The notes below the pieces were generated by a model. The model was not told where the DNA came from. It saw only the letters and a list, made by a program, of their open reading frames with translations, and made no database searches. A stretch of 6,881 nt of DNA from Synergistota bacterium (GTDB lineage Bacteria > Synergistota > JAGHAJ01): NCBI GenBank assembly GCA_021161545.1, contig JAGHAJ010000007.1:1-6881 (forward strand), given 5' to 3'. Shown here one piece after another: positions 2,726 through 6,881 of the stretch (positions are counted from its first letter, which is position 1; every line of letters starts with the position of its first letter). Made by a program: the position numbers and the translations under genes.

Positions 2726-3020
2726 GGTGATTTTCGTAAGTCAGCAGAAATAAAATAAAATCTTCAGAATATTACAAGGATCTCTGGTAAAATCAACTGG
2801 TGATGTCTTATAATTCCTGTAAAAAGGAATGGCCTAAGTTATAATTGTAAATGCAACAAAACTAATAAAAGAAAGGAGACCACCAAGTCAAAAAATGCGC
2901 AAGGGGTTGGAAGAATTGCTAAAAGAAGTTATAGAAGACGCTAAGTGAAGATGTTTGGCCACCTTTTTACAAGAAATTTGGGACTTGACCTACCTATCTG
3001 TGACTTTAAATCTTATATAC
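2726..3020. other. Intergenic stretch between divergent promoters; no confident gene
   Basis: About 295 nt of AT-rich DNA between the 6S promoter and the AOR promoter. I see two identical TTATAATT boxes (2808-2815 and 2839-2846) flanking a short inverted repeat ATTCC/GGAAT (2813-2817 and 2826-2830), and one 17-codon open frame. A TTGACC at 2985-2990 has no good -10 at the right distance. No RNA gene or mobile-element remnant is recognisable here. Confidence 0.5.
2895..2948 (+). CDS. Possible 17-residue small ORF (doubtful)
   Basis: An ATG-initiated frame encodes MRKGLEELLKEVIEDAK, an amphipathic, charged 17-residue peptide. A good Shine-Dalgarno-like AAAGGAG lies at 2872-2878, but it is 16 nt from the ATG, which is too far for efficient initiation. 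A TATAAT box at 2840-2845 could drive it, though no matching -35 is visible. It lies upstream of the main AOR promoter, so it is not a leader peptide of the AOR transcript unless transcription begins further upstream. I do not recognise a family; it may be chance. Confidence 0.2.
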   Translation: MRKGLEELLKEVIEDAK

Positions 3021-3049
3021 TTGACAGTTTTATTATTATTATTTATAAT
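3021..3049 (+). promoter_or_regulatory. Perfect-consensus sigma70 promoter of the AOR operon
   Basis: TTGACA (3021-3026) and TATAAT (3044-3049) match consensus at all 12 positions and are separated by the optimal 17 nt of A/T-only sequence after one G. The predicted transcript start is about 3056. Such a strong promoter fits downstream control by attenuation rather than by activator-dependent initiation. Confidence 0.88.
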
Positions 3050-3054
3050 ATTTT

Positions 3055-3114
3055 CACAAGTGTATACTCCGATCTTGTGTTACCCAACTTGTGCTACCCA
3101 ATGGCTAGCACAAG
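3055..3114 (+). repeat. Tandem 14-bp repeat with nested inverted repeats in the AOR leader
   Basis: CTTGTGTTACCCAA (3074-3087) is followed directly by CTTGTGCTACCCAA (3088-3101), one base different. CACAAG at 3055-3060 can pair with either CTTGTG. TAGCACAAG (3106-3114) pairs perfectly with CTTGTGCTA (3088-3096), closing a 9-nt loop, or with one G-U wobble with CTTGTGTTA (3074-3082). The region could be two adjacent RNA hairpins that exchange partners, or a repeated palindromic protein operator just downstream of the transcription start. Confidence 0.75.
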
Positions 3115-3120
3115 GCGTTA

Positions 3121-3168
3121 AGGGTAAAAAGGTGCCTTTTACCCTGCCGTGCTTACAAAGGGCACCTT
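3121..3168 (+). promoter_or_regulatory. Anti-antiterminator and antiterminator helices of the AOR leader
   Basis: Two mutually exclusive helices are seen. Helix A pairs AGGGTAAAA (3121-3129) with TTTTACCCT (3137-3145). Helix B pairs AAGGTGCCTTTT (3129-3140) with AAAGGGCACCTT (3157-3168), 12 bp with one G-U. Helix B takes up the bases that helix A needs, and also removes 3164-3168 from the terminator's 5' arm. With the loop of helix A (AGGTGCC) complementary to GGCACCT (3161-3167), a pseudoknot is a further possibility. Together with 3055-3114 this is the expected layout of a riboswitch or other attenuation leader; the ligand is not identifiable from sequence. Confidence 0.65.
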
Positions 3169-3193
3169 CCTTAAGGTCGGGAAAGGTCTTTTT
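3164..3193 (+). terminator. Intrinsic terminator inside the AOR leader (attenuator)
   Basis: ACCTTCC (3164-3170) pairs with GGGAAAGGT (3179-3187) with one bulged A, then CTTTTT (3188-3193). It sits 80 nt before the AOR start codon with no gene ending upstream, so premature termination of the AOR transcript is its only sensible role. The 5' arm overlaps the antiterminator strand. Confidence 0.65.
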
Positions 3194-3257
3194 GTATTGT
3201 CAAGGTAGAAAGGAGGTGCTTACGGGGAAACTCTTCAACTCAAAAACAAAAAACTTC

Positions 3258-3263
3258 GGGAGG
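3258..3263 (+). promoter_or_regulatory. Ribosome binding site of the AOR gene
   Basis: GGGAGG ends 11 nt before the ATG at 3275. It overlaps the alternative in-frame GTG at 3263, which therefore cannot use it. An earlier AAAGGAGG (3209-3216) has no useful downstream start. Confidence 0.6.
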
Positions 3264-3274
3264 TGAATAAAGGT

Positions 3275-5080
3275 ATGTTAAGTGGGTATATGGGAAAGAT
3301 ATTACGGGTTAACCTCACGGAGAGGAGTGTAAAAGTAGAGGAGTTAAATGAAGAGATAGCAAAAGGGTTTATCGGAGCAAGAGGTTTAGCAGAAAAGATA
3401 TTATATGACGAAGTCGACCCAAAGACAGACCCATTATCCCCAAAGAATAAACTTATATTTGCAACTGGTCCTCTAACTGGAACAATAGCACCAACAGGTG
3501 GTAGATACGACCTCGTAACCATAGGTGCTTTAAACCACAGGATAGCTGCAAGCAACTCTGGAGGGTTCTTTGGAGCAGAATTGAAACTTGCTGGATATGA
3601 CCTGCTAATAGTGGAAGGAAAAGCAGACAAACCAGTGTACATATGGATAAATGATGAACACGTGGAAATCAAAGATGCATCACACCTTTGGGGTAAGGAT
3701 GTATACGAAACTACCGACAGGATAACGGAAGAGCTTGGAGATAAGAAGATAAAAGTAGCCTGTATAGGACAGGCGGGAGAAAACCTTGTCAAATTCTCTG
3801 CTGTGATGAACGATAAATACAGGGCTGCAGGTAGAACCGGAGTAGGAGCAGTAATGGGCTCCAAGGCTTTAAAGGCTATTGCTGTAAGAGGAACTAAAAA
3901 AGTGAAGATAGCAAGCGAGGCAAAGTTTAAAGAAGCGATGAAGAAGGCAATGGATTTGATAAAGAGTAATGGTGTCACCTCCCAAGGATTACCAACGTAT
4001 GGAACAATGGTGCTCAACAATATAATAGACCAGCATGGTTTATACCCTACAAGAAACTTCCAAGATGGAACCTTTGAACATGTTGAAGATGTAAGTGGAG
4101 AAAAACTAAAAGAGACCTATCTTGTAAAAAACAGAGCTTGTTTTGCATGTCCCATAGGATGCGGAAGGGTTTGCCGCCTGCCAGACGGAGAAGAAGGTGA
4201 AGGTCCAGAGTATGAAACAAGCTGGGCATTTAGTGCAGATTGTGGTGTAAATGACCTAATAGCTGTAATAAAGGCAAACAACCTATGCAACAAATACGGA
4301 TTAGACACCATCAGCACAGGTGCAACCATTGCAGCTGCAATGGAGCTCTACGAAAAAGGTTACTTAAAAGATGAAGAATTACAGGGAGGACCAAAACTAA
4401 ACTTTGGAAACGCGGAGGCAATTACATATTACACAAAAGCGATAGCACTAAGAGAGGGTCTTGGAGATAAATTAGCAGAAGGCTCTTTAAAATTCGCCCA
4501 AAATTATGGACATCCAGAACTTTCAATGAGTGCAAAAGGGCAAGAGCTGCCAGCATATGATCCTAGAGGTGCGCAAGGACACGCCCTCGAATACGCAACA
4601 TCAAACAGAGGTGGTTGCCACGTAAGAGGATACATGATATCTCCAGAAATCCTTGGCGTACCTGAGAAACTAGACCCATTCTCAACAGAAGGAAAGGCAA
4701 AGTGGGTAAAAATATTCCAGGACCTCACGGCAATTATAGACTCAGAGGGATTATGTTTATTTACATCCTTTGCTCTTAGCTTGGAGGAATACACGGAACT
4801 CTACAATGCGGTAGTGGGTACAAATTACTCACCAGATGAAATGCTGAAGCTAGGAGAGAAAATCTGGAATTTAGAAAAGCTGTTCAATCTAAAGGCTGGC
4901 TTTGGTAAAGGAGATGACACACTTCCAGAAAGATTCCTCAAAGAGCCCATGCCATCAGGTGCAGCAAAGGGGCAGGTTGTACAACTCGGAAAAACTCTCC
5001 CAGAATACTATAAGCTAAGAGGTTGGAACGAAGAAGGCATACCAACAGATGAAAAATTAAGAGAGTTAGGCTTGAAGTGA
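3275..5080 (+). CDS. aor: Tungsten-containing aldehyde:ferredoxin oxidoreductase (AOR)
   Basis: A 601-residue cytosolic enzyme of the AOR family, which oxidises aldehydes to carboxylic acids (or the reverse) with ferredoxin as electron partner. It starts with the family signature GYMGKILRVNLT. The N-terminal pterin-binding domain has FATGPLTGT, NSGGFFGAELKLAGYD and GRTGVGAVMGSKALKAIAVRG. Cluster ligands are C289, C292 and C296 (CFACPIGC) plus C494 (DSEGLCLF), which agrees closely with Cys288/291/295/494 of Pyrococcus furiosus AOR (605 residues). GPEYET (E314) and NRGGCH (H449) correspond to the active-site Glu and His described there. DPRGAQGHALEYATSN is the second pterin-binding motif region. 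I chose the ATG at 3275; a GTG at 3263 is in frame but has no usable Shine-Dalgarno. It is transcribed from a consensus promoter through an attenuator-like leader and is followed by its maturase. Which aldehyde is used cannot be said. Confidence 0.95.
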   Translation: MLSGYMGKILRVNLTERSVKVEELNEEIAKGFIGARGLAEKILYDEVDPKTDPLSPKNKLIFATGPLTGTIAPTGGRYDLVTIGALNHRIAASNSGGFFGAELKLAGYDLLIVEGKADKPVYIWINDEHVEIKDASHLWGKDVYETTDRITEELGDKKIKVACIGQAGENLVKFSAVMNDKYRAAGRTGVGAVMGSKALKAIAVRGTKKVKIASEAKFKEAMKKAMDLIKSNGVTSQGLPTYGTMVLNNIIDQHGLYPTRNFQDGTFEHVEDVSGEKLKETYLVKNRACFACPIGCGRVCRLPDGEEGEGPEYETSWAFSADCGVNDLIAVIKANNLCNKYGLDTISTGATIAAAMELYEKGYLKDEELQGGPKLNFGNAEAITYYTKAIALREGLGDKLAEGSLKFAQNYGHPELSMSAKGQELPAYDPRGAQGHALEYATSNRGGCHVRGYMISPEILGVPEKLDPFSTEGKAKWVKIFQDLTAIIDSEGLCLFTSFALSLEEYTELYNAVVGTNYSPDEMLKLGEKIWNLEKLFNLKAGFGKGDDTLPERFLKEPMPSGAAKGQVVQLGKTLPEYYKLRGWNEEGIPTDEKLRELGLK

Positions 5081-5143: not shown

Positions 5144-6247
5144 ATGAAAAAGAACATAGAACTATCATTCAAAGACTACAAAGTTACAATAGAAAAAAAA
5201 CTAAACCTTAAGAAGTTATATATAGAAGTGACAAATAGGTGCAATCTAAACTGCAAGATGTGCTTTAGAAGGTTCTGGAAAGACCCTATAGGAGAGATAA
5301 ACATAAAAAATTTTAAACACATCCTCGAGAGCACAAAACCTTTCAAAGAATTAGAAACCATCTACTTAGGCGGAATAGGCGAACCAACTGTACATCCAAA
5401 ATTCAGTCAAATTATACAAACAGTAAAAGACTATGGTTACAGGTTAGAATTTGCCACAAATGGCACAAATCTGAAAAAGTACGCAAATGAAATAGTAGAT
5501 ATAGGAGTAGATACTATCATCATTTCCATAGATTCGCCAGACCCTTTAATTTACAAGGATATAAGGGGCACAGAGTTTTTTAGTATAATAGAAAATGTTA
5601 AAACAGTACAGGAAATAAAAGAAAGAAAAGGTAAAAGTACACCAGCTATAGGAGTAGAAGTTGTAGTAATGAAAGAAAACCTCAATAGCTTAGAAGAAAT
5701 CGTCAAACTCGCAGGCAAAGAACTCAAAGCAAACTTCATCATGTTTTCAAACTTAATGCCATTCAGCAAGGAACTCTCAGAAGAGATAGTATACAATGGA
5801 CTTGTAGACACAAAAAGTATGATAGACAGATTAAACAAACTTATAGGAACTTACAGAATAAAAGTCCTGACACCTAAGTTCGAGCTATTGACAGAAAGAA
5901 GATGTCAATTCATTGAAGAATCTGCAGCAGTAATAAGATGGGATGGGGAAGTAGCACCCTGCTATCGCTTTTTGCACAACTATCCAGAATACATATTAAG
6001 TAGAGAAAAACAGGTAAAAGCTTTCTCGTTTGGTAATGCACTCAAAGAAAGGCTTTCAGATATATGGACAAGAGAATCCTATATAGCATTCAGATATAGT
6101 GTAAAAAACTTTCTTTTCCCTTCTTGTACAGACTGCCCATTACGTGATGCATGCGAATATGTAAAAGACACAGATGCAGACTGCTGGGGCAACATTCCAT
6201 CTTGCGGAGATTGCTTATGGGCACGCGACATTGTAAAATGCCCTTAA
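5144..6247 (+). CDS. Radical SAM/SPASM maturase for tungsten AOR (Cmo-like)
   Basis: The 367-residue protein begins with a radical SAM core: CNLNCKMC (C33, C37, C40) binds the SAM-coordinating [4Fe-4S] cluster, GGIGEP (76-81) is the SAM-binding glycine motif, and FATNGTNL and ISIDSP are typical barrel strands. From ~250 on there is a SPASM-type auxiliary-cluster domain: C254, WDGEVAPC (C273), FGNALKERLSDIW, then a Cys-rich tail C328, C331, C337, C347, C354, C357 and C366, enough for two further clusters. Its place directly after AOR and its domain make-up match the radical SAM proteins next to tungsten oxidoreductases (P. furiosus cmo; the TIGRFAM 'tungsten cofactor oxidoreductase radical SAM maturase'). 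The exact modification is not established. AGAAGGA at 5131-5137 lies 6 nt before the ATG. The stop is only 1 nt from the 3' end of the convergent tmRNA gene. Confidence 0.88.
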   Translation: MKKNIELSFKDYKVTIEKKLNLKKLYIEVTNRCNLNCKMCFRRFWKDPIGEINIKNFKHILESTKPFKELETIYLGGIGEPTVHPKFSQIIQTVKDYGYRLEFATNGTNLKKYANEIVDIGVDTIIISIDSPDPLIYKDIRGTEFFSIIENVKTVQEIKERKGKSTPAIGVEVVVMKENLNSLEEIVKLAGKELKANFIMFSNLMPFSKELSEEIVYNGLVDTKSMIDRLNKLIGTYRIKVLTPKFELLTERRCQFIEESAAVIRWDGEVAPCYRFLHNYPEYILSREKQVKAFSFGNALKERLSDIWTRESYIAFRYSVKNFLFPSCTDCPLRDACEYVKDTDADCWGNIPSCGDCLWARDIVKCP

Positions 6248-6248
6248 G

Positions 6249-6604
6249 TGGTGGAGGCGGCGGGAATCGAACCCGCGTCCGAAGGGACCCGGTGTTAAAG
6301 GGTACTACAGGCTTGGTTGGGGTTTTTACATTCGGTGAATGGGTCTCCCCCCAACCGGATACCCCTTCACCTATCCCGAAAGTTGTCTCCTTGCAAACCC
6401 GGGATAGCTTGCAAGGACAAGCTGCCATCAATGGTTACACCCTTTACCTCCCGACAGCTAAGAGGCAAAAGATGTGGCTGTCTTTAAGCAGCCAAAGCGT
6501 ATGCAGGTTCTTCTGCAGTTACTTTTTCCCCATTGTTTTACGAGGTAATGGGACCTCGGCCTGCACCTTCACACCTCATCCCCCGTCGAAACCATTTCGC
6601 CCCC
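6249..6604 (-). ncRNA. ssrA: tmRNA (one-piece), tag AEEPAYALAA
   Basis: This 356-nt RNA has the diagnostic tmRNA ends. Its 5' GGGGGCG (6604-6598) pairs with CGCCTCC (6259-6253), followed by A and an encoded CCA (6251-6249). The third pair is G-U (6602 with 6255), the alanyl-tRNA synthetase identity element. AAATGGTTTCGACGGGG follows the 5' stem, and the T-arm GCGGG-TTCGATT-CCCGC is intact. The tag frame begins with resume codon GCA (6516-6514) and reads AEEPAYALAA then TAA (6486-6484), giving AAEEPAYALAA after the carried alanine; the ALAA end is the usual protease-recognition tail. Together with SmpB it rescues stalled ribosomes. It lies 6 nt downstream of the smpB stop on the same strand. 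The 5' end is presumably made by RNase P. No terminator is visible beyond the 3' end, where the strand runs antisense to the maturase gene. Confidence 0.98.
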
Positions 6605-6610
6605 ATTTTA

Positions 6611-6881
6611 CTACCTTTTAACGGCCTCGCGGAGCCTTCTCTCAATCTCTCTCCTAGCCAATTCTCTCCTCTTATCATATACATGCTTCCCCTTTGCAAG
6701 GGCAAGTTCCACCTTTACTTTCCCTCTATCATTTATGTACATAGACAATGGTACCAGCGTATAGCCTCTTTCCTTTGTCTTACCGATAAGCTTCCTGATT
6801 TCTTGCTTATGCAACAAAAGCTTCCTCTTCCTTAATGGATCATGATTCATATAGCTCGCAGGGTCATACACACTTATATGC
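6611..6881 (-). CDS. smpB: SmpB, tmRNA-binding protein (5' end beyond window)
   Basis: About 90 C-terminal residues are present; the frame is open to the right edge, beginning [15 protein letters not shown], so the N-terminal part of the OB-fold lies outside. Recognisable SmpB motifs are [23 protein letters not shown], the [37 protein letters not shown] block (substrate of the conserved GK and DKR signature), and a basic C-terminal tail ([13 protein letters not shown]) that enters the ribosomal A-site/mRNA channel. SmpB binds the tRNA-like domain of tmRNA and delivers it to stalled ribosomes. The stop at 6613-6611 is 6 nt before the tmRNA 5' end, so both partners are encoded in tandem and may share a transcript. 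A GTG at 6871-6869 lies in this frame but is internal, not the start. Confidence 0.96.
6616..6645 (-). promoter_or_regulatory. Weak candidate ssrA promoter inside the smpB 3' end
   Basis: TTGAGA (6645-6640) and TTAAAA (6621-6616) are 18 nt apart and would start transcription near 6609, a few bases before the mature tmRNA. The -10 matches consensus at only three positions, so ssrA may simply be processed from the smpB transcript. Confidence 0.25.

Follow-up and report, generated by a model that had tools for sequence, protein, structure and literature searches.

The stretch of DNA considered here (the window; 6,881 nucleotides of a chromosomal contig from a 1.58-Mb, 82%-complete assembly of a member of the Synergistota) contains a gene encoding an aldehyde ferredoxin oxidoreductase (AOR), followed by a gene encoding a radical SAM maturase, and raises the question of what is encoded by the leader that separates the AOR gene from its promoter. 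That promoter, described earlier as being of perfect consensus, indeed matches at all 12 positions and is the sole 12/12 TTGACA-17-TATAAT site within the window, with transcription presumably starting near position 3056. In a preliminary description, positions 3056-3193 were taken to be a structured regulatory leader, corresponding either to a divergent Moco-type element or to a new class. The results presented below favor the former. With a probability of roughly 0.62, the leader derives from a P3-less Moco riboswitch from which it has strongly diverged, belongs by descent to an AOR-linked sub-group of ON switches and most likely still attenuates transcription of the AOR operon.

When the whole window was scanned against Rfam, no riboswitch was detected above or near threshold in the leader. 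When positions 3030-3280 were scanned alone, the Moco/Tuco riboswitch model (RF01055), i.e., the Moco motif to which the preliminary description had pointed, could be aligned over its full length (positions 3055-3178), yet at 16.7 bits, a score below the curated cut-off of 36 bits. A search of the same genome with RF01055 returned a single 11.7-bit chance match elsewhere. As the window leader was missing from that list, such a genome search under-detects diverged copies of this kind. When the leader was compared at the DNA level to phage records and to 100 relatives, no more than short chance matches were returned.

AOR orthologues were gathered from public genomes and their upstream leaders were compared. 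Among the nearest orthologues (64-75% identity), found in Caldisericota, 'Atribacteria', Mesoaciditoga and TA06 records, several presented an RF01055 match of 35-85 bits at the same position. A covariance model (R1) was built from seven AOR leaders of other operons, with the window being left out. In these seven leaders, 97.1% of the cells were paired, double changes were seen in 11 of 20 pairs and the alignment gave a covariation score of 0.555, as compared to 0.248 in shuffles. R1 found the leader when the window was searched (E 1e-4) and, when the 1.58-Mb genome was searched, returned the window leader as the single match at E up to 10 (E 0.025). By simple arithmetic, and with such E-values being rough, the latter value would drop some ten-thousand-fold were the search confined to the leader of about 230 nt. 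A second model (R2), built from 51 distinct relatives and again without the window, also returned the window leader as its single genomic match. In addition, the leader folds better than do shuffled sequences (z -2.4 to -2.7), and the distance from the -10 box to the start of the aptamer model is 12 nt, as compared to 2-11 nt in orthologous leaders of the Caldisericota type. The gene linkage seen with RF01055, namely, to Moco/Tuco synthesis, transport and enzymes, is also found here, given the AOR and maturase genes downstream of the leader. The leader and the Moco/Tuco riboswitch family are homologous, as judged from sequence and structure, from where the promoter lies and from the neighboring genes. 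As such, the assignment of this region as a structured regulatory leader was borne out, while the full-length RF01055 alignment and the sole genomic match to R1 and R2 show the guess of a divergent Moco-type element to have been right.

The Moco/Tuco riboswitch family and the proposal that members lacking P3 sense Tuco were presented by Regulski et al. (2008; PMC2408646), in which study Tuco use was correlated with the absence of P3. That proposal is correlative, direct binding having been shown there for no Moco RNA (PMC2408646). Among the loci collected here, P3 is absent from both of the two forms encountered. In the ordinary form (UUGGAAAGG), P5 is closed by CC/GG and the loop is mostly GAAA. 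In the AOR-linked form (UUGCAAAGG), an RNA of about 94 nt, P5 is closed by GC/GC, P1 comprises 4 bp and a GNRA loop is found in each of the 51 R2 members (GCGA in 19, GCAA in 15, GUAA in 10 and others in 7). The R2 alignment, drawn from Synergistota, Caldisericota, Atribacterota and Tissierellales, has 96.9% of its cells paired and includes 250 double-change cells, as opposed to 73 in shuffles. It was noted in 2008 that GCAA-loop Moco RNAs lack the receptor (PMC2408646), a remark in line with the AOR-linked sub-group. The ordinary and GC/GC forms were repeatedly found together in one genome.

In searches that ignored gene context, an AOR gene lay downstream of 41 of 48 unique sequences of the GC/GC form and of 8 of 78 of the ordinary form, training sequences having been removed and the split between the two forms resting on one P5 pair (Fisher p 7e-18, a value overstated because the sequences are related). 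Two of the seven exceptions (L133 and L139) precede genes for near-identical proteins homologous to the tungsten radical SAM maturase, with that of L133 scoring 345 bits against the 380-bit cut-off for the family that includes the maturase encoded in the window. The other five, all Caldisericota hybrids not included in R2, combine an ordinary 5' half, UCCGAG and a GAAA loop with a GC/GC P5, and precede genes encoding WtpA (L164; model cut-off passed), WtpA-like proteins (L165, L169 and L198; judged by sequence likeness only) or another transporter-type protein (L194). Scanned neighbors of ordinary-form RNAs encode a TupA-like protein (below the model cut-off), WtpA, a fragment of a molybdopterin-dependent aldehyde oxidoreductase and a MoeA-like protein. 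P5 type was considered as a marker of Moco as opposed to Tuco sensing. This view was abandoned, as TupA and WtpA genes are likewise preceded by ordinary-type RNAs in the same groups; what is claimed for P5 type is a link to AOR alone, and not Moco/Tuco discrimination.

Of 20 loci scanned, six passed the RF01055 cut-off and 14 fell below it, revealing a blind spot in Rfam annotation. The Moco-II RNA motif (RF01713) of Proteobacteria, the name of which hints at a connection with molybdenum-cofactor genes (PMC2864571), gave no match in Rfam scans of the window or of 28 related loci. The AOR-linked RNAs constitute a sub-group of their own within the Moco/Tuco riboswitch, one that is for the most part unannotated and is found almost only before tungsten enzymes, in several bacterial phyla. 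No paper describing this sub-group was found in the literature searched, which included few subscription papers. The window element derives, by divergence, from a class that is already known, and the AOR-linked sub-group is a new variant of that class.

Table 1. Features of the AOR leader and flanking genes in the window.
Feature	Positions	Strand	Evidence or remark
Sigma-70-type promoter, TTGACA-17-TATAAT	3021-3049	+	12/12 consensus positions
Whole aptamer-like element, RF01055 relative of the AOR-linked sub-group	3062-3168	+	R1 20.1 bits; R2 23.0 bits; RF01055 16.7 bits
Core CUCCGA (P1 5' strand and invariant CGA)	3067-3072	+	CTCCGA in 15/51 relatives, CTTCGA in 23/51
P2 element, 43 nt (29 + 14)	3073-3115	+	29 nt is the P2 length in 38/51 relatives
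14-nt tandem duplication CTTGTGYTACCCAA inside P2	3074-3101	+	each copy able to pair with 3106-3114
P2-P4 junction CGUUA	3116-3120	+	identical letters in 5 relatives
P4 hairpin, loop AGGUGCC	3121-3145	+	helix 3121-3129/3137-3145; loop unlike the GNRA of 51/51 relatives
12-bp alternative helix, 5' arm, window-specific	3129-3140	+	pairs with 3157-3168
P5 and 3' core, GCCGUGCUUAC-AAAG	3146-3160	+	second P5 pair C.A, versus GC/GC in 51/51 relatives
12-bp alternative helix, 3' arm	3157-3168	+	overlaps P1 3' strand and terminator 5' arm
P1 3' strand GGGC	3160-3163	+	relatives of GGAG or GAAG type; P1 of about 3 pairs in the window
Weak intrinsic terminator-like hairpin and U5	3161-3193	+	7-nt loop, bulged A
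Shine-Dalgarno-like GGGAGGTG of the AOR gene	3258-3265	+	sequence
AOR, tungstopterin enzyme family	3275-5080	+	Pfam AFOR_N and AFOR_C
Tungsten cofactor oxidoreductase radical SAM maturase (TIGR04317)	5144-6247	+	434.9 bits, cut-off 380

Examination of the window copy revealed the core, P2 and P4 of an RF01055-type layout, with P1 and P5 being incomplete. As in the P3-lacking form of that family, the helices, as far as they are kept, appear in the order P1-P2-P4-P5, the core comprises CUCCGA and AAAGG, the RNA precedes a gene for a Tuco enzyme and a terminator follows the aptamer. No P3 stem is present, the P2-P4 junction being 5-6 nt long. Apart from its score, the window copy differs from RF01055 in having neither a GAAA loop, or any other GNRA tetraloop, on P4 nor the CCUAAG/UAUGG receptor in P2, two features widespread but not universal in the family, in the imperfect nature of P1 and of P5, of which one of two pairs can form, and in the duplication within P2, the two copies of which are identical at 13 of 14 positions. 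With the R2 sub-group it shares the basic P2 length, the junction, a 3' core corresponding to UGCCGUG-UU-C-AAAG, the promoter position, the downstream AOR gene and a tungsten radical SAM maturase gene in or near the operon; unlike that sub-group, it contains the 12-bp alternative helix. Of the three features that all 51 relatives possess, namely, a 4-bp P1, a GC/GC P5 and a GNRA loop, none is intact. P2 and P4 each form a perfect helix of 9 bp, with letters unlike those of any relative; the 9-bp helix that had been reported earlier corresponds to P4, a conserved aptamer helix that covaries across the 51 relatives. Neither the outer helices (P1 and P2) nor the core motifs or the tandem duplication had been noticed in the preliminary description.

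In the sub-group, the mean predicted pairing of P1 was 0.86 when the aptamer was folded alone and 0.00 when the next 45 nt, containing the terminator, were added; P2 (0.86) and P4 (0.68) remained. A terminator-like hairpin followed by a T run makes use of at least two P1 3' nucleotides in 38 of the 59 leaders tested, a set that includes the window and the hybrids, while in several of the remaining leaders that hairpin is present but the T run is shorter. As predicted from these folds, the cofactor, presumably Tuco, would close helix P1. With the 3' strand of P1 doubling as the 5' arm of the intrinsic terminator, P1 held by its ligand would block the terminator, and transcription of the cofactor-bound RNA would continue into the genes for AOR and the radical SAM maturase. 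The cofactor would thus switch AOR on, given that the P1 3' strand is the 5' arm of the terminator in most sub-group members. In the five Caldisericota hybrids, the P1 3' strand is a Shine-Dalgarno sequence located directly before the start codon of the transporter gene, an arrangement that would provide for OFF control of uptake.

Whereas the switch predicted for the relatives sets P1 against the terminator, that proposed in the preliminary description set P4 against a 12-bp antiterminator. Such a helix, including one G-U pair, does exist in the window and is rare by chance, a helix of 12 bp having arisen just once when the leader was subjected to 300 dinucleotide shuffles, yet it is conserved in none of the 51 relatives, each of which has a GNRA tetraloop at the site of one of the arms. 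The mutual exclusion of P4 and this helix held up: P4 has a predicted pairing of 0.83 in RNA that stops at 3160, but of 0.007 when the RNA extends to 3168, such that P4 would form first and then yield to the 12-bp helix. In folding at 37 C (and, for single hairpins, also at 60 C), performed without tertiary contacts, the minimum for the full-length leader was -47.4 kcal/mol, versus -34.0 kcal/mol for the aptamer-constrained fold. The terminator hairpin is conserved in place and overlaps the P1 3' strand by two nucleotides, but is poor here, at about -6 to -7.6 kcal/mol, as compared to -11 to -29 kcal/mol for the terminators of most relatives, and was not reported by a terminator scan of the window. 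Hence, when the three helices of the earlier switch are compared across relatives, P4 is conserved and covarying and the terminator is properly positioned, albeit weak in the window, but the antiterminator is confined to the window. The arms of the 12-bp helix are exactly those segments that depart from family features, i.e., the P4 loop and the P1 3' strand, and for this reason the window copy may be either rewired or decaying. Because P1 and the terminator are altered, it is uncertain how strongly, and even in which direction, control is exerted in the window.

Given that the promoter, P2, P4, junction and core are all kept, the window copy most likely still attenuates transcription of the AOR operon. 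Against this stand the sub-threshold Rfam score, the broken P1, P5 and GNRA loop, the weak terminator and a lowest-energy fold that is not that of the aptamer. Much of the same evidence would fit a relic, descended from an AOR-linked riboswitch, that has lost its response to ligand and allows constitutive read-through via the antiterminated best fold and the weak terminator: three otherwise invariant features are broken, P2 contains a duplication, the terminator hairpin was put at -6.8 kcal/mol and P4 pairing in the full leader is near zero. The perfect P2 and P4 helices, with letters of their own, together with the kept promoter, junction and 3' core, suggest selection, however, and leave a relic rather doubtful. 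In a rewired switch, the P4 loop would pair with the P1 3' strand and terminator arm as the 12-bp antiterminator, and the cofactor, by holding P4, would free the terminator and turn AOR off, the reverse of what is predicted for the relatives. The rarity of the 12-bp helix, the location of its arms in the family-deviating segments, a short P1 that is compatible with the terminator in the constrained fold and the predicted exchange of P4 for this helix would agree with such behavior. Still, this helix is absent from all relatives, the terminator is weak and it makes little sense for an enzyme to be turned off by its own cofactor, rendering this reversal quite unlikely. A related view, in which a separate Tuco sub-class, set apart in structure from ordinary P3-less Moco RNAs, dedicated to turning on tungsten AOR genes and lying mostly below the Rfam cut-off, was rewired here, with the P4 loop, as antiterminator arm, replacing the P1-terminator exchange, is equally improbable.

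What the RNA senses was likewise considered. A new riboswitch class, unrelated to Moco RNAs and responding to another ligand, such as tungstate, molybdate or an aldehyde-derived metabolite, could explain why no Rfam family is matched above cut-off by the window leader. This suggestion of the preliminary description found no support; it is already disfavored by homology, as the leader aligns over its full length with RF01055 and with orthologous AOR leaders, several of these scoring above the Rfam cut-off, and appears very improbable. That the AOR-linked sub-group as a whole senses a ligand other than Tuco, for instance, a pterin intermediate or Moco, would be in line with a core unlike that of ordinary P3-less members (P5 GC/GC, loss of the P2-P4 junction C, other GNRA loops), with the occurrence of this differing core in genomes also carrying ordinary members and with the presence of ordinary members before TupA and WtpA as well. 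Nonetheless, the nearly exclusive association of the sub-group with tungsten enzymes and tungstate uptake makes a non-Tuco ligand unlikely. Continued attenuation of the AOR operon, which would be exerted by Tuco, is the explanation favored here, where we infer both the ligand and the direction of control in this organism.

The AOR-linked sub-group represents a second structural split within P3-less RNAs, with one form being nearly confined to tungsten AOR genes. Its members are compact, natural RNAs that are supported by covariation and include an explicit terminator switch. With such RNAs, the question of Moco versus Tuco becomes directly testable, and they may help resolve how an RNA discriminates between the tungsten and molybdenum cofactors.

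The AOR encoded in the window is 74-75% identical to Caldisericota AOR, as compared to about 60% identity to AOR of its own phylum, the Synergistota. As such, horizontal transfer may have brought in the AOR operon together with its leader. A second AOR-family gene is found in the same genome (C285:643-2475; 41% identity), with no RF01055, R1 or R2 match nearby.

Several other observations were made within the window. Leader-peptide attenuation was considered and rejected, with just a tiny ATGGCTAGCACAAGGCGTTAA frame lacking a Shine-Dalgarno sequence being present, as was a coding leader, since the ORF at 2955-3266 gave no Pfam match. A perfect Shine-Dalgarno-like sequence, AGAAAGGAGGTG, lies at 3207-3218, about 50 nt upstream of the real AOR Shine-Dalgarno sequence and with no start codon within reach, and the octamer GTGCTTAC at 3149-3156 is repeated at 3216-3223. 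Upstream, a 6S RNA gene is encoded on the reverse strand (2509-2687; RF00013, 64.5 bits, above cut-off). Because the listed start of a HAD-hydrolase ORF (2614) falls within this gene, the true start is probably a later ATG near 2490. Between the 6S RNA gene and the promoter, a tiny forward-strand ORF, MRKGLEELLKEVIEDAK (2895-2948), may be a gene remnant. Finally, a tmRNA gene (6249-6604, reverse strand; RF00023, 200 bits) adjoins smpB (6611-6871).
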